Shown: in pieces, positions 9,360-54,264 of the stretch
How positions within the stretch are numbered: the first letter of the stretch is position 1
Layout: the number at the start of each line of letters is the position of its first letter
Made by a program: the position numbers and the translations under genes
Notes under the pieces: model-generated
Databases searched by the model: none
Told to the model about the DNA's origin: nothing
The model's input: the letters and a program-made list of their open reading frames with translations, nothing else
Assembly: GCA_031292555.1 (NCBI GenBank)
Contig: JARLGV010000011.1
Coordinates: forward strand, 45,796 to 109,795
Direction: 5' to 3'
DNA: 64,000 nt
DNA from: Fimbriimonas sp.
Lineage (GTDB): Bacteria; Armatimonadota; Fimbriimonadia; Fimbriimonadales; Fimbriimonadaceae

Positions 9360-10688
9360 ATGAAAGACGTTGGTTCCGTTCTCGACCTGCCTTTGCGTCC
9401 TACGACAGGGGACAGTTCGTGGTTCACCGAGGCACGATTTGGGATGTTCATTCACTGGGGGCTCTACGCGCTGCCGGCACGGCACGAGTGGGTCAAGCAC
9501 TACGAGCGACTCAGCAACGACGATTACCAGAAGTACTTCGAGCACTTCGATCCCGATCTGTACAATCCGGAGATATGGGCGGATGCCGCTGCCGAAGCCG
9601 GCATGAAGTACTTCGTGATCACGACAAAGCATCACGACGGGTTCTGTCTCTGGGACACCGAACTCACCGACTACAAGATCACCAACACGCCCTACGGCAA
9701 GGACGCGATTGCCCCGATGGTCCGGGCCTTCGAATCGCGTGGGCTTGAAACCGGCTTCTACCATTCACTCATCGATTGGCACCACCCCCACTTCCGAGTC
9801 GACGAGATGCATCCGCTACGGGACCATCCTGATCGCAAGAAGCTGAACGAGAGTAGGATTCCTGCCCGATACACGGAGTATCTCCACGGCCAAGTCCGAG
9901 AATTGCTCACCCGCTATCCGAAGCTCCGACTGATCTTCTTCGATTTCTCCTATCCATCGACGCCAGGCAAACTCAACGCTCAGGGCGAACCTTGGGAGGG
10001 CAAAGGACACCTCGACTGGGGCAGCGAGGAGCTGGTCCGGATGATCCGCCAACTCAACCCCCAGATCCTGCTCGACGATCGCCTCGATCTTCCCGGCCAA
10101 GCGGACGCATGGGACTACATGACCCCCGAGCAGTACCAACCGGACGGCTGGAAGACGGTAGAGGGCCAGCGCGTCGTGTGGGAGGCGTGTCAGACGTTCT
10201 CTGGCTCCTGGGGCTACTACCGAGACGAGGAAACATGGAAGTCAGTCAAACAACTGCTCCTGATGTTGATCGACACGGTTGCCAAAGGCGGGAACCTACT
10301 CCTAAACGTGGGCCCGACTGGACGCGGAGAGTTCGACGAACGCGCCCTCGATCGGTTGAAGGGCATGGGAGAATGGATGAAACGCCACAACCGGAGCATC
10401 TATGGCTGCACGATGGCCCCGTTCGAGGCGCCCCAAGACTGCCGCTACACCTACAATCCGAAAACGAATCGGCTCTACCTGCATGTGCTTTCATGGCCCA
10501 CCGGAGCACTTCGACTCCAAGGGTTGAACGATCGATTCGAATACGCCCAACTGCTGAACGATGCATCGGAGGTGCGGTTCGTGGTCGGGGGCGAGCACGA
10601 GGAGTTCACAGGAATTACATTGAAACTTCCTGTGAAGTCGCCGAACGTGTCGATCCCAGTGATCGAGATCTACCTCAAGCCGGCCTAG
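9360..10688 (+). CDS. Alpha-L-fucosidase, GH29
   Basis: A 442-residue cytoplasmic enzyme (no signal peptide) releasing L-fucose from oligosaccharides. GH29 motifs are clear: WFTEARFGMFIHWGLYALPA (21-40), the substrate loop YFVITTKHHDGFCLWDT (84-100), and the strand-4 segment LRLIFFDFSYP, where D195 is the expected nucleophile. VAKGGNLLLNVGPTGRGEF marks the end of the barrel, and a small beta domain follows. The ATG at 9360 has GGGGGA six bases upstream. The gene stands alone, flanked by a decayed interval and a hairpin, so it is probably transcribed by itself. The acid/base residue varies in this family and cannot be named. Confidence 0.92.
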   Translation: MKDVGSVLDLPLRPTTGDSSWFTEARFGMFIHWGLYALPARHEWVKHYERLSNDDYQKYFEHFDPDLYNPEIWADAAAEAGMKYFVITTKHHDGFCLWDTELTDYKITNTPYGKDAIAPMVRAFESRGLETGFYHSLIDWHHPHFRVDEMHPLRDHPDRKKLNESRIPARYTEYLHGQVRELLTRYPKLRLIFFDFSYPSTPGKLNAQGEPWEGKGHLDWGSEELVRMIRQLNPQILLDDRLDLPGQADAWDYMTPEQYQPDGWKTVEGQRVVWEACQTFSGSWGYYRDEETWKSVKQLLLMLIDTVAKGGNLLLNVGPTGRGEFDERALDRLKGMGEWMKRHNRSIYGCTMAPFEAPQDCRYTYNPKTNRLYLHVLSWPTGALRLQGLNDRFEYAQLLNDASEVRFVVGGEHEEFTGITLKLPVKSPNVSIPVIEIYLKPA

Positions 10689-10698
10689 AGTTCCAACC

Positions 10699-10729
10699 AA
10701 TGCCTTCCCCACTTTTTGGGGAAGGCATT
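10699..10729. terminator. Bidirectional hairpin terminator between convergent genes
   Basis: A perfect 12-bp stem (AATGCCTTCCCC / GGGGAAGGCATT) with loop ACTTTTT lies 10 bases after the fucosidase stop and touches the stop codon of the convergent membrane protein gene. There is no strong T-run outside the loop, so termination strength is uncertain. Confidence 0.65.
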
Positions 10730-12468
10730 CAGACTAATCCCTTTTCGCGGCAGACATCGTCGAACATGGCGAATATCCGGCTTCGATTTCTCTCGAAACG
10801 TTGGGGCGACATCGTTACCAAAGGCGTCTCCATCGACTTGTCGAGCCACTCTTGGCCGGCCGCTCGACTGGGCACGACGGAGAGCGCCCCGCGGATCTGC
10901 CGCCTTTGGGAGTTCCTTACGATCGAGAGCATCAAGGGCATCGCCACGATGGCAGGAGCCAGCATAGCGAAAAAGAGGAGGAACGATCGAGTCTCGACCG
11001 GCGCATGGGCTCGCACATATGGCATGAGGAAGAACGCGAAAACAAAGCTCAGGGGGATGATCACCAAGAAGAAAGGTAGGATCTGCCTGACCGAGCTTCC
11101 CAGCAACGAATAGGCGATCCCAAAATCCAAACTATCTGGGCTTAGGCTTTCGATCGCCTTGCGCGTAATGGTCAGACGACCGTTGTACGAGACGATACTG
11201 ACCCGCTGAGACTGATCGCGCGGTTCGATCAAGTCGACTCCGCCGCACAAGCACTTGGACTCCCGAGCAATGCGCAGCGCGCGCTCCACGATCGGATCTC
11301 CTGTCTGGGCCGGGATCTTCCTGGCCGTGAATTTTGCGCTCATGTATCCCGACAGGGGAATTCCACCGAACATGACCACCGTGCCAATCAAGCGTATCGT
11401 CGAGCGGGAAGCCTGCTGTTTGGGCAAGCTCGACGAGTAGGCGGTCATCCCGAACCCGACAATGAAGAAGGCCAGCATCAGGCCGATGGGGGTGTACTTG
11501 GACGAAGGAGTCAAGTTGACCGTCTTCGAGCCCTGGAAATCCGGCTTGTCGGCGTTGTCGGAAAACAGTCGATTCTCGACGCCCGACATCGGGATCAGCA
11601 GGAGCATCGGAATCGGCATGCTTAGAAACAGGAACGGGATCAACGCCGTGGCCACGCTCGACGTGCCGAACCAGAGGTCGGCGATCGGGATCAGAAAGCC
11701 CCCCAGAATTCCCAGCATCGAGATCGGGATGCAAAGCCCAATCGCCCAGTAAATGGGCTTGATCGCGCAGGACTTGTAGAGCGCTCGACGTCGCGTCAAC
11801 TCGATATCGGTACGCTTGGCAACGATCACCGCAACCGAGAAACCACCGATCAGGGCAAGAAGAGGGCCAAAAACCACCACAAAAGGCAGGAGCCAAAGAA
11901 CGACGCTCATCCTTGCCTGGAGATGAATCGGCCGGTCGATCAGGGGTTCGATCGGGAATGTCGCGATCGAATTCGAATGGGTCACTTCGGTTGCCGGGAT
12001 CCCATCGGATGCATCCCTTGTAACACTTACCCCGCCAAAGACCGTCCAGCCATCCTCTCGAAGCACCCTAACGACGGCGCCAAGATCAAAATCCCACGCA
12101 TGTTCACGGCTAAGCAACCTGCCCCGCGAGAAGTTCGCCACGGCCGCCGCGTAATCGTCTTCTTGCGAGTAGGCCACATCGGCTGCTCCAAATCCCCGTC
12201 GCAAATCCTCCGCCAGCGCTTTGGCATTTTCGTTCGGGTTCGCCGCGACGATGACCTGAGCGAACGCGGCGCCCGTTCGGGCAATCAGATATAACTGCTT
12301 CCTTTCCAAGACTTCCGGGCCAAGTTGGTGCTTCCGGATCGTCGCGATGAAGTTGTGCTCCCGGGTTTTGATCAACCATTCCGCTGATTCGGTGACCTGA
12401 GCCGGACAAACAGAAGCTGCCAGCCACATAAGAACGCAAGCGATGCCGGGGAATAACTTCAGTCCCAT
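10729..12468 (-). CDS. Multi-pass membrane protein, possibly a catalytically dead M48-type peptidase
   Basis: A 579-residue protein. It has a signal-like N-terminus (MGLKLFPGIACVLMWLAASVCPA), an extracytoplasmic region with a TPM-like feel (about 25-195), and six to eight membrane helices (about 200-490). Within this is the soluble stretch VSIVSYNGRLTITRKAIESL, then DSLDFGIAYSLLGS. The order of strand, TRKAIESLS and then a helix resembles M48 peptidases, where the helix would carry HEXXH; here it reads AYSLLGS, so no zinc site is visible. No reliable family can be given. It is monocistronic and convergent with the fucosidase gene. The M48 resemblance is a weak inference. Confidence 0.5.
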   Translation of the reverse strand: MGLKLFPGIACVLMWLAASVCPAQVTESAEWLIKTREHNFIATIRKHQLGPEVLERKQLYLIARTGAAFAQVIVAANPNENAKALAEDLRRGFGAADVAYSQEDDYAAAVANFSRGRLLSREHAWDFDLGAVVRVLREDGWTVFGGVSVTRDASDGIPATEVTHSNSIATFPIEPLIDRPIHLQARMSVVLWLLPFVVVFGPLLALIGGFSVAVIVAKRTDIELTRRRALYKSCAIKPIYWAIGLCIPISMLGILGGFLIPIADLWFGTSSVATALIPFLFLSMPIPMLLLIPMSGVENRLFSDNADKPDFQGSKTVNLTPSSKYTPIGLMLAFFIVGFGMTAYSSSLPKQQASRSTIRLIGTVVMFGGIPLSGYMSAKFTARKIPAQTGDPIVERALRIARESKCLCGGVDLIEPRDQSQRVSIVSYNGRLTITRKAIESLSPDSLDFGIAYSLLGSSVRQILPFFLVIIPLSFVFAFFLMPYVRAHAPVETRSFLLFFAMLAPAIVAMPLMLSIVRNSQRRQIRGALSVVPSRAAGQEWLDKSMETPLVTMSPQRFERNRSRIFAMFDDVCREKGLV

Positions 12469-42601: not shown

Positions 42602-43912
42602 CTATCGACCCACCAAACTCATCAAACGCGACACCACTTTGATTGGGTCGTGCCGCACGAAATCGGTATCACTCATGTAGTTCCCCTGTAGCACCTTGAG
42701 ACCCAACACCTTGATCCGGTCGATATCGGGCTCGACCACATACTGCCCCACGTTGGAGTATCGGCCCAAGAGCGATTCGTTTGGAGTTCCGGTGTTGACC
42801 ATCACATAGTCGAACACCTTCCGTTCGGTGTTATTCAAGATCGTCGTGACGTGTTCGGAAGCGCTGAACGTATCGCTCTCGCCCGGTTGGGTCATGACGT
42901 TGCAGATATAGACTTTGGGCGCCTTGCTGAGGCGGATCGCCTCCGCGATCTCCGGCACGAGCAGGTTCGGGATCACGCTTGTGTACACGCTCCCTGGTCC
43001 GATGCAAATCAGATCTGCTTCCTGGATCGCCTCCACCGCCGCCTTGTACCCGATGCAGTTTGGCGGATCCAAGTGAATGCGCCGGATGCGCCGGCCCGCC
43101 GATACGATGGCCGTCTCCCCGCAAATCTCCTCGCCGTCTTCCAGTACCGCGCGCAACCCTACCGTCTCAAGGGTGGAAGGTACGACCCGTCCACGAATCG
43201 CAAGAACGTCGGAGGCGATTTCGATCGCTCGCTCGAAGTCGCCTTTCGCCTGATCCACAAGCGCCGCAATGAGCAGGTTTCCGATTGCGTGGCCGCTGAG
43301 CGATCCGCTATCGTCCTTGAACCGGTGCTGGAAAAGATCGGTCATCGACTTTTCCGCGTCAGCCAGGGCAACGAGGCAGTTCCGGATGTCGCCGGGCGGG
43401 ATCATGCCCTTGTCTTGAATCAGTTTCCCCGAGCTTCCGCCGTCGTCAGTCACGGTGACGATTGCGGTGATGTTGCTCGAATGGTGCTTCAAGCCTCTGA
43501 GCAACGTGCTGAGGCCGGTTCCCCCTCCCATCGCGACGATCCGTGGGCCCTGGGCAAGCTGGCGTCGCCGCACGTAGACGTCCACCTTGCCGGCGGTCAG
43601 ACCGGGGTTGAGCGTCTCGACGATGTGGTTGATAACCGCTCGAATGGCGCGGAACGTGAGGTAGATGCCAAACAGCAGGAAAACCAGGCCTAGGGCCCAT
43701 TCGGTGGTGTCCAGGCGATCTCGAGGTACCAGCCGCTCCAACCCCAGGTGGGTCATCGTCGCAAACCAGTTGGCCAGCGGCTTGACGATCGGCTTGAAGC
43801 CAAGCCCGATGCCGAGAAGGAGCGAGATGATCCCAAGGACCATCATGCCCGCAGCCTTTTGGAGGCCGACAGTCGGAGCAAGCAGCTTCCGCAGCCGGTA
43901 GCTCTTAATCAT
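42602..43912 (-). CDS. yvcK: YvcK/CofD-like protein with N-terminal membrane domain
   Basis: A 436-residue protein. Two membrane helices (about 15-45 and 65-95: MMVLGIISLLLGIGLGFKPI, LGLVFLLFGIYLTFRAI) precede a CofD-like Rossmann domain beginning RIVAMGGGTGLSTLLRGLKH with TVTDDGGSSGKLIQDKG. DIRNCLVALADAE and GPGSVYTSVIPNLLV are further YvcK signatures. In Firmicutes, YvcK binds UDP-GlcNAc and is needed for gluconeogenic growth and cell shape. The membrane extension occurs in several phyla. It overlaps the upstream gene by eight bases and is two bases from gmk. Confidence 0.9.
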   Translation of the reverse strand: MIKSYRLRKLLAPTVGLQKAAGMMVLGIISLLLGIGLGFKPIVKPLANWFATMTHLGLERLVPRDRLDTTEWALGLVFLLFGIYLTFRAIRAVINHIVETLNPGLTAGKVDVYVRRRQLAQGPRIVAMGGGTGLSTLLRGLKHHSSNITAIVTVTDDGGSSGKLIQDKGMIPPGDIRNCLVALADAEKSMTDLFQHRFKDDSGSLSGHAIGNLLIAALVDQAKGDFERAIEIASDVLAIRGRVVPSTLETVGLRAVLEDGEEICGETAIVSAGRRIRRIHLDPPNCIGYKAAVEAIQEADLICIGPGSVYTSVIPNLLVPEIAEAIRLSKAPKVYICNVMTQPGESDTFSASEHVTTILNNTERKVFDYVMVNTGTPNESLLGRYSNVGQYVVEPDIDRIKVLGLKVLQGNYMSDTDFVRHDPIKVVSRLMSLVGR

Positions 43913-44300
43913 CCTTGTCGTCGGGCAGGAATACCCCTAAAACTCCATTGATGAATGAAATCAAAAGGCTGGCGACGAACGCGGCGATAAACGCCTTGGG
44001 TCCCGAATCGCTGATCTTGAAGCCAAGGTTCAGCGAAGCAGCAACCCAAAGCACGACCGCATTGATCACTAGCGAAAACAGGCCGAGCGTAATGCAGCTG
44101 AGTGGGATTGTAATCAGCTTGAGAATCTTGCCCAGCGTCGCGTTGAGGAAGCTGAGCACGGCTACGCCGATCAGCAGTTTCAGAGCCCCGTCGATCGAGC
44201 TGACGTCGACTTGGAAACCCAGTTGTAGTGCGTGAGTCACCAACGATGCCGCAAAGACCGATATCGCGAGAACGATCCAACGTAAAAGTAACTTCCTCAT
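43905..44300 (-). CDS. Small YvlD/phage-holin-4-like membrane protein
   Basis: A 131-residue protein with four membrane helices (about 5-25, 38-58, 65-90, 105-125). LIGVAVLSFLNATLGKILKL and TIPLSCITLGLFSLVINAVV match the YvlD family (DUF360, also called phage holin 4_2), which is widespread in chromosomes and not a sign of phage. The C-terminus is acidic (PDDKDD). It leads the yvcK-gmk-coaBC operon, overlapping yvcK by eight bases. It is divergent from mutS. The cellular role is unknown. Confidence 0.85.
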   Translation of the reverse strand: MRKLLLRWIVLAISVFAASLVTHALQLGFQVDVSSIDGALKLLIGVAVLSFLNATLGKILKLITIPLSCITLGLFSLVINAVVLWVAASLNLGFKISDSGPKAFIAAFVASLLISFINGVLGVFLPDDKDD

Positions 44301-47013: not shown

Positions 47014-48549
47014 TCACTCCTTGGGTTGGGCGCCGGTCATATAGAAGGCATCTCGGTGGATCGAATCGAGTCGACCGTTCAGGATGTCCGCGAAGACTCG
47101 TCGCGCCTCATCAGGTTTCACGAAGACTCCCGGACGCTTCGTATAGGGCTCGGCCACGTAGAACGGTTGTGACAGGTACCGTAGCGCCTTTCGAGCACGT
47201 TGGACACGCTCCAGGGCGTCCGGCGAAAGTGCATGCCTCTCCGACGAGTTCACCGAAAACTGAAGCGCCATGTATTCTCTGAGCAGGTTACAAATACTCC
47301 GAGGCAATTCCTCCCCTCCATTGGGCTCGAGTCGTTTCGATCGGGACGCCAAGGGGTCGACACAGGGCCAGATCGCCTGTTCTGCCAGATAGCGGCCCAG
47401 GACGATTCGAGCATCGAGTTTGCTCGTCGAGTCGATGAAGCCGCCGTCAACCGGATCGTCCACGGGCAAGTAGGTGATCTGGATATCGTTGGTCCCCACT
47501 GACGCTTCGTCGACGAATTCGGACCACTGCCGTTCATCGCGCATGGGCGGCGCAAACACGAGAAGGCTCTGGCGCGCTGCCGCATTCTCCAAGCGATAGA
47601 CAAGTTCGGGTAGGAGCACCAGTACTCCAAGGCCCCATTCGCAGAAGATCCCACTGACGCCAGATTGGGAAAGCGGCGAGAACAGGTCGACCGTCTTCAC
47701 GCCGGTTGTCACCGGCTGTCCCGAATGAGCGGTTGCCGATTGAGACACGATCTGGGAAACCACATGGGTGTCGAGTGAACCGGCAAAGGCTAGCCTCTCA
47801 TCCAGCACTTCCTGGCCCGGCAGCCAGATCGATCCGGCTCGCCTAGGAGCGGCGATAACGCGTCCCGCCGAATGATGCCGTATGACGCATAGGCGTTCCT
47901 CTCCCATGCCCCTGATGCTCGATAGGATCGGTGGAACGGAATTGGGGGCGAACTGCACTGTCAAAATGGGACCCCGGACATCTTGGATGCGCCCGGAATT
48001 CGGTAGGTGGGATGTGTTGTCAGACATGGTCGTCAGTCTCCTTCTGAGTCGTTTTCGAGCGGCGTGGAGGCGCATGTTGACCGCATGGACGGTTACTCCC
48101 ATCTGCGTCGCAATCTCGCTCTGAGACAGCCCACACTCATAGAAGAGTAGGATTGCTTCCCTCTGTTCAAGTTCGAGGGCGTCAATCGCGTCTCGTACCT
48201 GCGACGAGATCGCAGGTCTGAGGGTGTCGTATCGGGACGACGGCGCCTCGAGATCAGAATCGACGATTTCGTCCCAGGAATCGGTCGGCAATTGGGTTCT
48301 GATGGCTCGAAACGCCTGGTGACGAACAATCCCTCGGAGCCAAACCCCGAACGCTCGTGGGTCTCGAAGACGATCCAGATTCTGGTAAGCAGCTAGGAAA
48401 GACTCCTGGACGACATCCTCTGCCATCTGGTCCCGCCCGACAAGCGTCAGAGCATAACCGAATGCCATGTCGCGATAGCACATGACCAAGCCACTAAACG
48501 CCTGAACGTCTCCGCTGTAGGTTCGGTCGATGATCTCTTCAAGATCCAT
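47014..48549 (-). CDS. ECF-type sigma factor fused to a degenerate F1-ATPase beta subunit
   Basis: A 511-residue single frame. Residues 1-85 form sigma region 2 (LTLVGRDQMAEDVVQESFLA), and 120-172 region 4 (LELEQREAILLFYECGLSQS, then EIATQMGVTVHAVNMRLHAA). From residue 185 to the end it follows ATP synthase beta: SGRIQDVRGPILTVQF (barrel domain, 185-200), TTGVKTVDLFSP (281-292), ITYLPVDDPVDGG (358-370), IWPCVDPLASRSKRLEP (393-409) and ALRYLSQPFYVAEPYT (455-470), ending DSIHRDAFYMTGA. Walker A GGAGVGKT is replaced by CEWGLGVL (303-310), the GER glutamate is lost, and roughly 90-110 residues around Walker B are missing. An internal ATG (residue 175) sits at the junction. It probably binds promoters, with a non-hydrolysing beta-like sensor or binding domain (inference). 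Confidence 0.88.
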   Translation of the reverse strand: MDLEEIIDRTYSGDVQAFSGLVMCYRDMAFGYALTLVGRDQMAEDVVQESFLAAYQNLDRLRDPRAFGVWLRGIVRHQAFRAIRTQLPTDSWDEIVDSDLEAPSSRYDTLRPAISSQVRDAIDALELEQREAILLFYECGLSQSEIATQMGVTVHAVNMRLHAARKRLRRRLTTMSDNTSHLPNSGRIQDVRGPILTVQFAPNSVPPILSSIRGMGEERLCVIRHHSAGRVIAAPRRAGSIWLPGQEVLDERLAFAGSLDTHVVSQIVSQSATAHSGQPVTTGVKTVDLFSPLSQSGVSGIFCEWGLGVLVLLPELVYRLENAAARQSLLVFAPPMRDERQWSEFVDEASVGTNDIQITYLPVDDPVDGGFIDSTSKLDARIVLGRYLAEQAIWPCVDPLASRSKRLEPNGGEELPRSICNLLREYMALQFSVNSSERHALSPDALERVQRARKALRYLSQPFYVAEPYTKRPGVFVKPDEARRVFADILNGRLDSIHRDAFYMTGAQPKE

Positions 48550-49072: not shown

Positions 49073-50404
49073 TCATAGTGATCGCTTCGTCGTTTGGCGA
49101 CCGATCCACCAAACGACCGGGCCGGATGCGAGTGCCACCGCGGACAGCCAAATGGCAACTTGTCCCTTGTCCTGGAATCGGCTGATGCACGCGAAGACCA
49201 CCAAGGCAGCGGGCGCTGTCAGAACAAGGACGAGTGCCGGCCAGCCCCCCGGTATGCGAAATGGGCGCATTAGGTCCGGCTCCTTGAACCTCAGAACCGC
49301 CAGCGCGATGAACTCGAACACGAGCGCGGAGCTATAAAGGACGACGTCGACGACAGTCAGATCGTTGAACCGCTCGTAACTGAGTGCGGTGTAGAACACC
49401 GCGCTGACCAGAATCGCGACCGTCGGCGTGCCCCACTTTGGGTGGAGCTTGGTCAGTCGGGCGGGGAGCCAACGGTCTCGGGCCAGCACGAACGGGATTC
49501 GTGAACTGGACAGCAAGGTCGCCGAGAACAACCCCGCGCTCGAAACGATGCCGGCGGCGGCGACCGCGATGCCCAGCCACCTTCCGCCAACGAGAGAAGC
49601 GACTTGAACCCAAGCGCCATCTTTCCAGGCGTCCGTCCCCCGAAGAACCGTCAAACCCACAAGCACAGGGAAGAGGTAGGAGGCGGTGACGATCAACACA
49701 CCGACCCCCAACGCTCTAGGAAGATTCCGCTGGGGCTCGACGATCTCGCCCGACACCGTCGAGATCGAATCCCAACCGAGGTAGTTCCACATCACCGAAA
49801 AGAGGCCGACCCCAACCGCTCCGGTTGCGCCCTGCGACTGCCACACGAAGGGATGGACGGTCGCCGAAAGATCGGTCACAACTTTCGACATCCCGAACGC
49901 GAGCAACACGGCGAACGGCACGAGGAGCAGCACAAAGAACGAAACTGAACCAACTCCAACGATCTTCGTACCTCGCATATTCAGCCAGGTGAGGGGCACA
50001 ATGATCGCCAGACCAACCAGCCATTTAGTCCAGGGATTGCTGTCGATCGCCGTCGAGTAACCGACCAACTCCAGAAACCGAGCCACATAGGCGGCAAACA
50101 AAGTCGGATAGATCGCCGTGTCGACCCAAGAGTAAATCCACGTCCACCAGCCGCAGAGGAATGCGCATGGCTGTCCGAGCGCCCGTTTGACCCAAACGTA
50201 ATAGCCACCCTCGTCCGGCATCGCGCTGCCCAATTCCGCCGTCAGTAGCGCAACCGGCGCGCTCCAGATGATCGGGGTCACGATCAGCAGAAGCACCGCC
50301 AACCCCGCTCCCGCCTGCACCATCGGCTCTAGTCCGAACGCGCCACCGCTCACGCAGAAGTAAATCGTCGCCAACAGCGGCCAAAACCGAAGCGTGCGCT
50401 TCAC
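49073..50404 (-). CDS. APC superfamily amino acid permease
   Basis: A 443-residue transporter with about 12 membrane helices. The first helix has FCVSGGAFGLEPMVQAGAGL, the broken-helix substrate site of APC proteins, and the second has APVALLTAELGSAMPDEGGY followed by YVWVKRALG, the family signature. A later conserved stretch is MWNYLGWDSISTVSGEIVEP. The substrate is probably an amino acid or polyamine taken up with cations. Divergent from glcD by about 190 bases. No regulator is adjacent. Confidence 0.92.
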   Translation of the reverse strand: MKRTLRFWPLLATIYFCVSGGAFGLEPMVQAGAGLAVLLLIVTPIIWSAPVALLTAELGSAMPDEGGYYVWVKRALGQPCAFLCGWWTWIYSWVDTAIYPTLFAAYVARFLELVGYSTAIDSNPWTKWLVGLAIIVPLTWLNMRGTKIVGVGSVSFFVLLLVPFAVLLAFGMSKVVTDLSATVHPFVWQSQGATGAVGVGLFSVMWNYLGWDSISTVSGEIVEPQRNLPRALGVGVLIVTASYLFPVLVGLTVLRGTDAWKDGAWVQVASLVGGRWLGIAVAAAGIVSSAGLFSATLLSSSRIPFVLARDRWLPARLTKLHPKWGTPTVAILVSAVFYTALSYERFNDLTVVDVVLYSSALVFEFIALAVLRFKEPDLMRPFRIPGGWPALVLVLTAPAALVVFACISRFQDKGQVAIWLSAVALASGPVVWWIGRQTTKRSL

Positions 50405-50597
50405 GGGAGGATTCTATCCTCTGGCGCTTCGACATACGAGGAGGCAAAGAGGCGAGGGATGGCAACTGCCAGGTCACTGCGAATCCTCTGGCTCTCGGCG
50501 AACGTGCCGCCTACCTTCGCCTCCACCAGAACTGCAGTTCACGACTGCAAAACAGATACGAAGCTATAGGTCAAGCCGCCTGCGGTACGCTCCATCC

Positions 50598-52031
50598 ATG
50601 CTCTCGTCGCATGCCGAACTGGCCAAAGCGCTACAGTCGGTTCTTACTCCCGACGCCGTTCTCAGCGGAGACGCGGCCGAGCGCGCCTATGACTGCGACG
50701 CCTACACCGTCGACCGGAATAACCCATCTGCCGTCGTCCTTCCCCGATCCACCGAGGACGTCGCCAAGGTCGTTCGATGGTGCAACAAGAACGACGTGCC
50801 ATTTACCGCCCGGGGAGCCGGAACCGGCCTGAGCGGAGGCGTCCTTCCTGCCATGGGCGGGGTCGTGCTTTCCACCAAGAGGATGACCAAGATCCTCGAG
50901 ATCGACTACGATAACCGTTGCCTTCTCGCCCAAGCGGGCATCCCAAACAAACGGCTATCGGACGCGGTGAAAGACCGGGGCCTCTACTTCGCACCCGACC
51001 CATCGTCCCAGTCAGTGTCGACGATAGGCGGAAACATCGGTGAGAATGCGGGCGGGCCGCACACGCTGAAATACGGAGTCACCGTCCAGCACATTCTGGG
51101 CTTAACGATGGTCGACCCGCTGGGGGAGATCCTCCACCTCGGGGGCAAACTGCCCGGCGCACCCGGATACGACTTTGTGGGGATCGTAGTGGGAAGCGAG
51201 GGCACGATGGGGATCGTGACCGAAGCCTGGGTCAAGCTTTGCCCGATACCCAAGGCTGTCGCCACCGCGCTCATCTCCTATCGAAACGTTGCCGACGCCT
51301 GTCGGACCGTGGCCGAGATCATCGCCCAAGGCACCATTCCCGCGGCCCTCGAGATGATGGACCACGGCATTCTGCGCGCGGTCCGGGCTGCATTCGGCCT
51401 CGAGTACCCGGAAGGGACGCTCGCCATGCTGCTCATCGAATGCGACGGCGAGCCGGATCGCGTCGCCCACGAAATGGAGTCGGTACAGAAGGTGTGTAAG
51501 AAGAACGGTGCCCTCCAGATCCGACTGGCCGAGGATGAAGCCGAGCGAGCCAAGCTCTGGACGGCCCGGAAGAAGGGCATCGGCGCGATGGGTCGGATCG
51601 CTCCAAGCATCGTCACCCACGACGGGGTCATTCCCCGCTCCAAACTGCCCGAGATGCTCGAATTCGTCTACGACGTCTCGTGGCGATACCAGATCGGCGT
51701 GGCGAATCTTTTCCACGCCGGTGACGGCAACCTGCACCCGTGCTTCTACTTCAACGACCGCGATCCCGAGCAGGTAAAGAGCGTCGTTGCAGCAGGAGAA
51801 GAGATCATCCGGCGGTGCGTCGAACTGGGCGGCAGCGTCAGCGGGGAGCACGGAATCGGCATCGAGAAGGTCGATCTGATGCCGCTCATGTTCACTCCGG
51901 AGGACATGGAGTTCCAGGCGACCGCCAAGAGGATCTTCAACGACGGGTCTTTGTGCAACCCGTGCAAGGTCCTCCCCAGCCAAAAGGGATGCGTCGAGCA
52001 CCGACGGAGATGGAGAGGCACCGCATGGTAA
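50598..52031 (+). CDS. glcD: Glycolate oxidase FAD subunit
   Basis: A 477-residue flavoprotein oxidising glycolate (or lactate) to the keto acid. The PCMH-type FAD domain has VPFTARGAGTGLSGGVLPAM and GNIGENAGGPHTLKYGVT. The C-terminal FAD-oxidase domain has ANLFHAGDGNLHPCFYFNDR and GGSVSGEHGIGIEKVDLM, with the catalytic-site histidines. The ATG at 50598 starts at the family's normal position (MLSSHAELAKALQ); the open frame extends upstream without protein-like content. It overlaps glcE by seven bases and leads the glcDEF operon. Confidence 0.93.
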   Translation: MLSSHAELAKALQSVLTPDAVLSGDAAERAYDCDAYTVDRNNPSAVVLPRSTEDVAKVVRWCNKNDVPFTARGAGTGLSGGVLPAMGGVVLSTKRMTKILEIDYDNRCLLAQAGIPNKRLSDAVKDRGLYFAPDPSSQSVSTIGGNIGENAGGPHTLKYGVTVQHILGLTMVDPLGEILHLGGKLPGAPGYDFVGIVVGSEGTMGIVTEAWVKLCPIPKAVATALISYRNVADACRTVAEIIAQGTIPAALEMMDHGILRAVRAAFGLEYPEGTLAMLLIECDGEPDRVAHEMESVQKVCKKNGALQIRLAEDEAERAKLWTARKKGIGAMGRIAPSIVTHDGVIPRSKLPEMLEFVYDVSWRYQIGVANLFHAGDGNLHPCFYFNDRDPEQVKSVVAAGEEIIRRCVELGGSVSGEHGIGIEKVDLMPLMFTPEDMEFQATAKRIFNDGSLCNPCKVLPSQKGCVEHRRRWRGTAW

Positions 52032-52900
52032 TCCCGGAAACCCTCGAAGAAATCGCCAACATCGTTAGGGACGCCAAGGGGACCGTCATCTTTCACGCAC
52101 GGCCCCAACCCCATCCGTTTGCCATCTCGGGCCCGACTGGTCCCGACGTCGTAGCTATCTCAATGAGCTCTTACGAGGGCATCATCGAGCACGACGTTGC
52201 CGACCAGGTCGTGGTCGTTCGAGCAGGCACGACACTGACCCAGCTTCAGTCCCATTTGGCCATAACCGGCCAGTGCCTCCCGCTTCCCCGATTCGATGCG
52301 AACTACGAATTGGCAACCGCCACGATCCACGGCCCGCTGATCGACAAGATCGCCTTCAATCTTCCCCACGGGTTACAATTCCAGTGCGGATCCTGGCGCG
52401 ACTGGATCATCGGGATGAAGATCGTGCGAGCCGATGGGACCATCGTGAAGTGCGGTAGCAAGGCAGTCAAAAATGTCGCCGGCTTCGACGTGCAAAAGCT
52501 TATGATCGGAGCGCGAAACACTCTCGGATTGGTTGCGGAAGTGACGCTCAAGACGTACCCAATTGAGGCCTTGCCCCTATCGGAAGTTCAAATCGTGCCA
52601 ACCATGGCCGGACGGGCGCCGAACTTCATTCAGCGTGTGCTTCCGACCGATCTCAATGCCGCGATCCGATCGTTGGGACAGCAACTGATCGCCTGTGACC
52701 GCCCCTCGTCGACGCTATGGGCCGAAGTAAGGCCCATGGAGTCGCCCCGGCGATTCAACGGCGACTGGATCATGCGAGCAGGCGCCGGACCGCGAAACCT
52801 GGAGTTTCCCGATGCCGCGCTCGTCAAGCTAATGCGTCGCACCAAAGAGCTCTTCGATCCTGGCTACAAACTAAACCCGGGGGCGATGGGCATCTTCTAA
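52025..52900 (+). CDS. glcE: Glycolate oxidase FAD-binding subunit
   Basis: A 291-residue smaller FAD-binding subunit of the glycolate oxidase complex. It lacks a full oxidase domain, as usual. VKNVAGFDVQKLMIGARNTL and LVAEVTLKTYPIE are diagnostic of the PCMH fold, and YKLNPGAMGIF resembles the family C-terminus. The ATG at 52025 has GAGAGG six bases upstream and overlaps the glcD stop; the ATG at 52010 is less well placed. It is followed by glcF after five bases. Confidence 0.9.
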   Translation: MVIPETLEEIANIVRDAKGTVIFHARPQPHPFAISGPTGPDVVAISMSSYEGIIEHDVADQVVVVRAGTTLTQLQSHLAITGQCLPLPRFDANYELATATIHGPLIDKIAFNLPHGLQFQCGSWRDWIIGMKIVRADGTIVKCGSKAVKNVAGFDVQKLMIGARNTLGLVAEVTLKTYPIEALPLSEVQIVPTMAGRAPNFIQRVLPTDLNAAIRSLGQQLIACDRPSSTLWAEVRPMESPRRFNGDWIMRAGAGPRNLEFPDAALVKLMRRTKELFDPGYKLNPGAMGIF

Positions 52901-52905
52901 TCGAC

Positions 52906-54264
52906 ATGGATCGTCGGTCCGGAGTCATCGGTTACGTGGATGATCGAACCGGCGAACGGCTAAACTTCACATTGCCATTATCAACCAGGATTGGACCGGT
53001 AATGGTCGAAACCGTATCCCGCGTTTCGGCTCAAAACATGAACGACATCCTCGAACTGACGACTCATTGCATCCGATGCGGGTTCTGCCTCGAGTCTTGT
53101 CCAACATTTGTCACGACCGCGAACGAGATCGAGTCGCCAAGAGGCCGGATCTACCTGGTTCGCAGCGCAGTCGAAGGATTGCTTGACTGGCAGAAAGACG
53201 TCCGGCCGCACATCGAGCTATGTCTAGGTTGCCGGGCATGTGAGACCGCATGTCCAAGTGGGGTCGAGTACGGTCGGATTCTCGAAGGTGCGAAGGAAAA
53301 GCTGGAGCAGGATCGACCCCAGTTCTCCAAGCTAGCGCTTCTCAACGCAACGACAAGGCCCTCGACGCTCAAAGCTCAGCTCGCAATGGGCAAGCTCCTG
53401 CCTGGAAAGCGCATACCTACTCCGATTTCTATGCTCTTGAGCAAACAGAAGCCGGAAGTCGACCAGCCGACCCCTCAGAAACTGAGTCCGCTTCCGCCTC
53501 TGATCCATTCGCAACTCAAGCCGGTCCAGGGCCAAGTCTATCTGCTCGAAGGATGCGCGATGCGCGTGCTGTTTCCTAGAGTGCATGAAGCCACTCGCCG
53601 CCTTCTCCGACGAATTGGCTACGAGGTTCTCGAAACAGCCCAAGGCTGCTGCGGCGCCATGCATGCCCACAACGGATACATCGATACCACGAAGTCGGTG
53701 GGCCGCGAGTTGCTGATCGCGATGTCCCGTGAGATTCCTGTCATCGTCAACTCTGCCGGATGCGGTAGCACGATGAAGGACTACGGCAATATTCTCGAGG
53801 ACACCGCCGGCGCCACCAAGTTCGCAAAGCGGACCTTTGATGCCTCTGAGTTCCTATTCGCCAACGGGCTGATGGAGGAGTTGGCCTCCGCCAGTGGGTT
53901 GCCCGTAACTGCCACCTATCACGACGCGTGCCACCTGGCCCATGGACAAAAGATCACGAGTCAGCCTCGCGAGTTGATTCAAGCCATTCCCCGCCTGACC
54001 TACGTACCCCTGCAAGAAGCCGACATGTGCTGTGGCAGCGCCGGCGTCTATAACGTGCTTCAACCCAAAATGGCTCGATCGCTGGTGGAGCGCAAGTACG
54101 CAAACATCGAAGAGACCGGCGCCCGGATTGTGGCGACCGGGAACCCCGGTTGCCATGCCTGGATCGCTCAGGCCGCGCAAGAGCACGGCAAGAAGATCAG
54201 CGTCTTGCACACCATGGAATTGCTCGAAGCGGCTTTTTGCGGGCTCGAACCGTTCATGAACTAG
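52906..54264 (+). CDS. glcF: Glycolate oxidase iron-sulfur subunit
   Basis: About 452 residues. Two [4Fe-4S] motifs, CIRCGFCLESCP and CLGCRACETACPSG, pass electrons from the flavin subunits to the quinone pool. Two CCG domains follow, with EGCAMRVLFPRVHE, ETAQGCCGAMHAHNGY, YHDACHLAHGQ and ADMCCGSAGVYN. The ATG at 52906 adds a 45-residue lead (MDRRSGVIGYVDDRTGERLN) before the ferredoxin part; a start at 53002 or 53039 cannot be excluded. It completes glcDEF. Confidence 0.92.
   Translation: MDRRSGVIGYVDDRTGERLNFTLPLSTRIGPVMVETVSRVSAQNMNDILELTTHCIRCGFCLESCPTFVTTANEIESPRGRIYLVRSAVEGLLDWQKDVRPHIELCLGCRACETACPSGVEYGRILEGAKEKLEQDRPQFSKLALLNATTRPSTLKAQLAMGKLLPGKRIPTPISMLLSKQKPEVDQPTPQKLSPLPPLIHSQLKPVQGQVYLLEGCAMRVLFPRVHEATRRLLRRIGYEVLETAQGCCGAMHAHNGYIDTTKSVGRELLIAMSREIPVIVNSAGCGSTMKDYGNILEDTAGATKFAKRTFDASEFLFANGLMEELASASGLPVTATYHDACHLAHGQKITSQPRELIQAIPRLTYVPLQEADMCCGSAGVYNVLQPKMARSLVERKYANIEETGARIVATGNPGCHAWIAQAAQEHGKKISVLHTMELLEAAFCGLEPFMN

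Follow-up and report, generated by a model that had tools for sequence, protein, structure and literature searches.

A sigma factor joined in one reading frame to a shortened, catalytically dead F1-ATPase beta-like module

A single open reading frame of 511 residues, carried on the minus strand of a 64,000-nucleotide stretch of Fimbriimonas sp. DNA (contig JARLGV010000011.1; this whole stretch is called the window below), encodes sigma-70 regions 2 and 4 (residues 21-168) followed by a half that resembles the beta subunit of F1-ATPase (residues 184-511) (Table 1). The initial annotation had proposed that this gene joins a sigma factor to a catalytically dead F1-beta in one frame, and the proposal is confirmed by the frame itself, by profile and fold matches, and by a pool of 128 proteins in which both halves are found. 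If the regulatory scheme set out below is true, such a protein would offer a direct physical route from the adenine-nucleotide state of the cell to promoter choice; we know of no other sigma factor with a former rotary-ATPase subunit as a built-in regulator. A sigma-beta fusion is not reported among the literature titles searched, which leave preprints and most subscription journals outside their scope, such that an earlier mention is possible, and a term search of the main text of two ECF reviews returns no occurrence of "ATP synthase".

The first half of the protein has the domain content of an ECF (group 4) sigma factor, with regions 2 and 4 found and no region 1 or 3 model matched in Pfam. 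It scores 80.6 bits against TIGR02937 (cut-off 42.9) and lies slightly below the cut-off of PF07638, Sigma70_ECF (19.5 against 21.1). As in ECFs with a C-terminal extension, the frame continues past regions 2 and 4 into a conserved soluble domain, present in all 128 pooled proteins, and no anti-sigma gene was recognized when the neighbors looked at (mutS and an amino-acid-transporter-like permease) were judged by inspection rather than by profile search. Unlike the known ECF extensions, the one described here derives from F1-beta and spans about 330 residues. Over residues 185-511, the part that had been assigned to beta from the start, profile and fold homology extends through the barrel, nucleotide and C-terminal domains, and the structure model retains these domains in the order that they have in beta. 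The window protein does not reach the Pfam cut-off for PF00006, and its 119 bits against TIGR01039, the AtpD equivalog model, are far under the cut-off of 462.85. The module resembles AtpD in its fold, in its barrel-to-C-terminal helical domain order and in its adenine-pocket residues, and differs from it in being joined to a sigma factor and in having lost the Walker A lysine, about 20 residues near positions 113-132, and a core of about 90 residues that includes the GER glutamate and Walker B.

These losses are not peculiar to the window protein, in which the Walker A lysine, the GER glutamate and the Walker B aspartate are all replaced or missing. When 50 fusions were aligned with 12 AtpD sequences (P0029 numbering), AtpD residues 193-286, where the GER glutamate and Walker B are located, and residues 113-132 were gapped in at least 90% of the fusions. 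The Walker B columns are gaps in every one of the 50, the GER glutamate is gapped in 49 with a threonine in the remaining one, and the Walker A lysine is present in a single protein. Across the pool of 128 fusions the GER and Walker B columns are gapped without exception, and the position of the Walker A lysine is mostly taken by T, I, A, V or L. The DELSEED stretch is likewise mostly lost in the alignment to AtpD. The enzyme parts had been described at the outset as decayed; the catalytic residues are indeed lost, but the losses are common to 128 proteins rather than a decay of this gene, and together with the absence of the core of about 90 residues they point to an old, stable module.

What has been kept is the pocket for adenine. 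Tyr345, Phe418, Ala421, Phe424 and Thr425, which form the adenine pocket of bovine F1 and whose numbering fits a constant offset of 6 to P0029, correspond in the 128 fusions to Y (106) or W (22), F (127), A (128), Y (126) or W (2), and T (122). Trp394-Pro395 of the window protein is the counterpart of bovine Tyr345-Pro346. Within the QPFYVAEPYTKRPG stretch, the Q, P, A and last G are found in 128 of 128 fusions, the F in 127, and the Y in 126 with W in the other two; judged by eye, no other nearly invariant run in the beta half is as long as QPFxVAEPY. The same pocket residues are conserved in ordinary AtpD too, so their retention could be structural. The affinity of the module for ATP may also be low, since the phosphate-binding lysine is gone.

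Table 1. Coordinates of the features discussed (positions refer to the window unless a locus is named)
Feature	Position	Strand	Basis
Whole sigma-beta gene, 511 aa	47014..48549	-	open frame, ATG start; full-length relatives
Sigma-70 region 2, residues 21-86	48292..48489	-	Pfam PF04542, 49 bits against a cut-off of 24
Sigma-70 region 4, residues 117-168	48046..48201	-	Pfam PF08281, 53.6 bits against a cut-off of 25.7
AGA AGG AGA (Arg169-171), Shine-Dalgarno-like, 5' of the internal ATG	48037..48045	-	duplex energy -8.9 kcal/mol
Internal ATG (Met175), likely second translation start	48025..48027	-	M in 122/128 fusions; linker pLDDT <50
F1-beta-like half, residues 184-511	47017..48000	-	
Dead Walker A, CEWGLGVL, residues 303-310	47620..47643	-	AtpD alignment; Lys in 1/50 fusions, absent here
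Site of the missing AtpD core (GER Glu and Walker B), about residues 334-335	47545..47550	-	Walker B columns gapped in 50/50 and 128/128
Trp394-Pro395, adenine-pocket aromatic	47365..47370	-	Y 106 / W 22, P 128/128
QPFYVAEPYTKRPG, residues 461-474, remaining adenine pocket	47128..47169	-	conservation in 128 fusions
Permease and glcDEF-like genes beside the fusion	49073-54264		
glcD-like gene downstream of the fusion	L128 215-1624		
F-type ATPase beta genes, own genome	L133 8764-10230; L134 7542-9065	-; +	intact Walker A
Frame with alpha-like P-loop, after the L134 beta gene	L134 11933-13513	+	
HTH-beta genes	L069 (Bacillus sp. RO1) 9782-10825; L058 (Robertmurraya) 9794-10840	+; +	

The fusion recurs well beyond the window. 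A first search with residues 180-511 as the query returned 62 proteins, to which two loci were added. Both halves lie in one frame in 50 of these 64 examined proteins; of the other 14, six are of AtpD length and eight are shorter, four of the shorter ones being encoded on contigs of less than 1.5 kb that are too short for the whole gene and one, P0022, still having sigma region 4 according to its precomputed Pfam domains. A profile made from 38 fusions then matched 304 proteins at E<=1e-60, and new fusions were drawn from the best 120 of these. The resulting 78 and the 50 earlier ones, the window protein included, constitute the pool of 128, and in all of them the sigma and beta halves are both present and the frame is open across the junction. 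As this pool was drawn with fusion queries, the figure speaks for breadth and not for the absence of split forms, and the pool is redundant, with only 18 proteins remaining at less than 60% identity. Two of its members, P0206 and P0250, each score above the Pfam cut-offs for sigma region 2, sigma region 4, PF02874, PF00006 and PF22919. Three of the 62 proteins of the first search (P0018, P0021 and P0045) are predicted as beta-only on contigs long enough for a whole fusion gene (longest contigs of 14,394, 3,038 and 8,163 bases, respectively), so split versions may exist. The expectation that relatives would share the fusion with a conserved junction is therefore borne out by 128 proteins with both halves and a junction methionine in most of them, and no stop or frameshift parts the halves in the window frame or its relatives; the initial annotation had also stated that its proposal would fall if related genomes encoded the halves as unrelated genes, and the three beta-only predictions point partly that way.

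Among the genomes sampled, the fusion is rare and patchy. Its source-named hosts are Rokuibacteriota/Methylomirabilota, Vineibacter and Xanthobacteraceae, and the named loci among the matches listed belong to Rhodospirillales bacterium URHD0017 (L031) and to a Bradyrhizobium MAG whose fusion gene is split over two contigs (L039 and L128). In a set made up of the window's own genome and 60 relatives, only the former has the fusion (1 of 61); no match in the other 60 improves on E=7.7e-29, and the matches listed are limited to the sigma or the AtpD-like part. A sample of the phylum, searched at E<=1e-25, again yields the own genome only (1 of 291). Although 66 of the 291 pass this threshold, the listed matches outside the own genome cover only query residues 156-332 of 336, which is the same as ordinary AtpD gives. 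The order of G291, the genome that holds L031, has the fusion in 2 of 76 genomes, the class of G291 in 1 of 385 and the family of G292 in 1 of 248; in each of the latter two the single positive is the genome on which the sample was centred. No fusion was found in the phyla of G293 (0 of 149) and G297 (0 of 217), both sampled without a positive control. With respect to a plasmid origin, none of the 167 plasmid records with a match is covered over at least 80% of the query.

Purifying selection acts on both halves in the pair formed by L031 and L127, with a dN/dS of 0.244 over 175 codons of the sigma half and 0.257 over 352 codons of the beta half. Pairwise distances in the two halves correlate closely (r=0.94, n=50; 0.76 and 0.98 inside the two clades), and a tree built from 60 beta sequences has a branch (86/99, recovered in 89% of bootstrap trees) that sets its 26 fusions apart from the rest. 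The window protein sits on a long branch in this tree (0.74); given also its PF00006 match below the cut-off, it may be under weaker constraint than its relatives.

The junction between the halves is marked by a methionine. Met175 lies among residues 174-181, which are poorly ordered in the predicted structure (pLDDT <50), and its column is M in 122 of the 128 fusions. A methionine occurs somewhere in residues 173-177 in 126 of them, and the two exceptions have valine, which a GTG start would also give. No other internal column reaches 90% M across the 128 fusions, and among the 18 representatives less than 60% identical this one is M in 17. Similarly, a motif-anchored count places methionine at the junction position in 42 of 44 fusions and in 0 of 22 lone ECFs; 6 of 50 fusions had been dropped for want of the motif, and 22 of 74 lone ECFs had both the motif and sufficient downstream sequence. 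To judge from these alignments, a second start at Met175, which would give a free beta module, is likely.

A Shine-Dalgarno-like stretch, AGAAGGAGA, stands ahead of Met175. The DNA at the junction reads CTCAGAAGGAGACTGACGACCATG in the window, CTCAAGGAAAGGATGCTC(GCC/GAC)ATG in L031 and L127, and CGGAGGATGTTGACCATCATG in L128. The duplex energy is -8.9 kcal/mol at the internal site versus -3.3 where the gene itself starts. Of 3000 random 21-mers from the window, 6.9% are at least as strong as the internal site, and in-frame start codons that score better than it number one in the window (TTG 415), four in L127 and at least five each in L031 and L128. In the 32 ORFs of the window, AGA and AGG account for 5.3% and 8.2% of arginine codons. 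The strength of the Shine-Dalgarno-like stretch is modest and not decisive, and the argument for an internal start therefore rests on the conservation of the methionine. Five predicted proteins (P0018, P0021, P0039, P0048 and P0045) start at or beside the junction methionine, of which P0039 and P0048 come from contigs too short to judge.

In the window, the fusion gene is flanked on one side by a convergent mutS and on the other by the amino-acid-transporter-like permease together with glcD-, glcE- and glcF-like genes, the NCBIfam matches of these flanking genes being under the curated cut-offs of their models. A small protein with a Phage_holin_4_2 match (PF04020, E=1.5e-20) is encoded at 43905-44300 on the minus strand, where it overlaps the beginning of the longest mutS frame. 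In L128, a glcD-like gene lies about 700 bases downstream of the fusion, on the same strand and with 40.6% identity to that of the window. L031 is flanked by an MFS transporter, a TPP enzyme and a luciferase-like monooxygenase, L127 has the same neighbors by eye, and no glcD-like gene was seen in the parts of these two loci that were read. A link to a glycolate oxidase regulon was considered and set aside, as a glcD-like gene near the fusion in the window and L128 only makes too few loci. In two relatives, G004 and G005, the fetched stretches keep the permease-glcDEF-queF order but contain neither the fusion nor mutS, so that the presence of the gene looks lineage-specific; in four other genomes (G003, G006, G008 and G012) the glc genes alone were found in the corresponding stretches. 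A candidate ECF autoregulation promoter of the form GAACC...CGTT (48637-48615, minus strand) was given no weight, the pattern occurring 22 times on both strands of the window; it is also found four times in L133 and three times in L134, the own-genome atp loci, counts that carry no meaning.

Those two loci contain AtpD genes with an intact Walker A, one of which also has the GER motif searched for, and because they coexist with the fusion in the same genome, the fusion is not a replacement for AtpD. Behind the beta gene of L134 lies a frame with an alpha-like P-loop, an arrangement like that of N-ATPase operons.

How might such a protein work? The scheme that we tentatively put forward, and whose chance of being right we place somewhat short of even, is an ECF-type sigma factor gated by a shortened, non-hydrolysing F1-beta-like module through an adenine-containing ligand. 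The sigma half would be active, and the beta module would bind a ligand bearing adenine without hydrolysing it. Binding would alter whether sigma regions 2 and 4 are free for RNA polymerase, by analogy with ECF41 and ECF238, in which C-terminal extensions are described as controlling the sigma factor (PMC8999054, section 3.5); that section describes C-terminal extensions of ECFs as taking over from missing anti-sigma factors. The second start at the conserved Met175 would supply free beta module, which may associate with the fusion and tune it, and the two could assemble into rings. Were the ligand ATP, ADP or AMP, the protein would be tied to the energy status of the cell.

Other schemes accommodate some of the same observations. 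The beta module could, as the initial annotation suggested, be a docking part that binds F1 subunits (alpha, gamma) or assembly partners and so reports on the state of ATP synthase. The module follows beta in its succession of barrel, nucleotide and C-terminal domains, and genes for F1 subunits are present in the same genome, as docking would have it. In F1, DELSEED touches gamma, however, and this is the stretch that the fusions have mostly lost; moreover, no atp gene was recognized adjoining the fusion in the four loci inspected (the window, L031, L127 and L128, the last being a 3.5-kb contig), and we regard docking as unlikely. It is rather unlikely, too, that the beta half is an inhibitory, built-in equivalent of an anti-sigma factor which assembles with itself in the absence of any ligand, free beta entering mixed rings and thereby setting how far the sigma factor is held back. 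The F1 beta fold makes rings together with alpha, and ring formation of this kind, the conserved junction methionine and the want of a recognized anti-sigma gene among the neighbors inspected would all suit such an arrangement, but it leaves unexplained why, by eye, conservation in the beta half is highest along the adenine-pocket stretch. The three beta-only predictions that start at or near the junction methionine raise the further thought that two proteins share a frame by history only, the internal start yielding a working beta-like protein and the fusion being a by-product. We consider this improbable, as the frame is open across the junction in 128 of 128 proteins (though their pool was built with a fusion profile) and the distances in the sigma and beta halves correlate. 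Finally, the long branch of the window copy and its beta match under the Pfam cut-off might be taken for signs of a decaying pseudogene or an assembly artefact, a notion that we give next to no credence and that is already contradicted for the family by the recurrence of the architecture in 128 pooled proteins from several sources and by a dN/dS of about 0.25 in both halves of the L031/L127 pair.

A second class of DNA-binding proteins with a beta-like part is found in Bacillaceae. In L058 and L069, genes for proteins of about 350 residues place a Cro/C1-type HTH ahead of the beta-like part, the HTH match being weak in each protein alone. A search with the L069 protein gave 930 proteins at E<=1e-3, ordinary AtpD possibly among them, and the best 120 of the 930 were examined (P0063-P0182). 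In all 120, Lys167 is replaced by Gln and the pocket aromatics are kept, and HTH_26 and ATP-synt_ab are both found in 34 of 34 aligned members (Pfam, E<=0.05). Many of these HTH-beta proteins carry the database name ATP synthase beta. They are like the sigma fusions in combining a DNA-binding domain with a beta-like part that has a dead Walker A and retains adenine-pocket residues, and unlike them in having a Cro/C1-type HTH in place of sigma, in missing much of the barrel, and in the change of the Walker A lysine to glutamine. The AlphaFold model of HTH-beta is poor (pLDDT 62.8), and its fold matches consequently carry little weight.

The 10 HTH-beta proteins sampled in the beta tree are set off by a single branch (100/100) and do not join the sigma fusions. 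With a length of 3.24 this branch is very long, and support is poor for the forks near the point where it attaches, so that an independent origin of HTH-beta is no more than probable. Sequence comparison thus suggests that F1-beta probably entered transcription regulators twice, once with a sigma factor and once with an HTH, and the HTH-plus-dead-beta family hints that the F1-beta fold has been reused more generally for sensing ligands. A bolder version, in which F1-beta was made into a sensor for transcription control at least twice, and in which sigma-beta and free beta, both made from one gene by way of a second start, would form an F1-like ring that reads the adenine-nucleotide state and releases sigma, strikes us as doubtful in its entirety. 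Long C-terminal extensions of another kind were met along the way in Paenibacillus, where ECF sigma factors of about 525-528 residues (L042, L048 and L057) carry a C-terminal DUF1835 extension.
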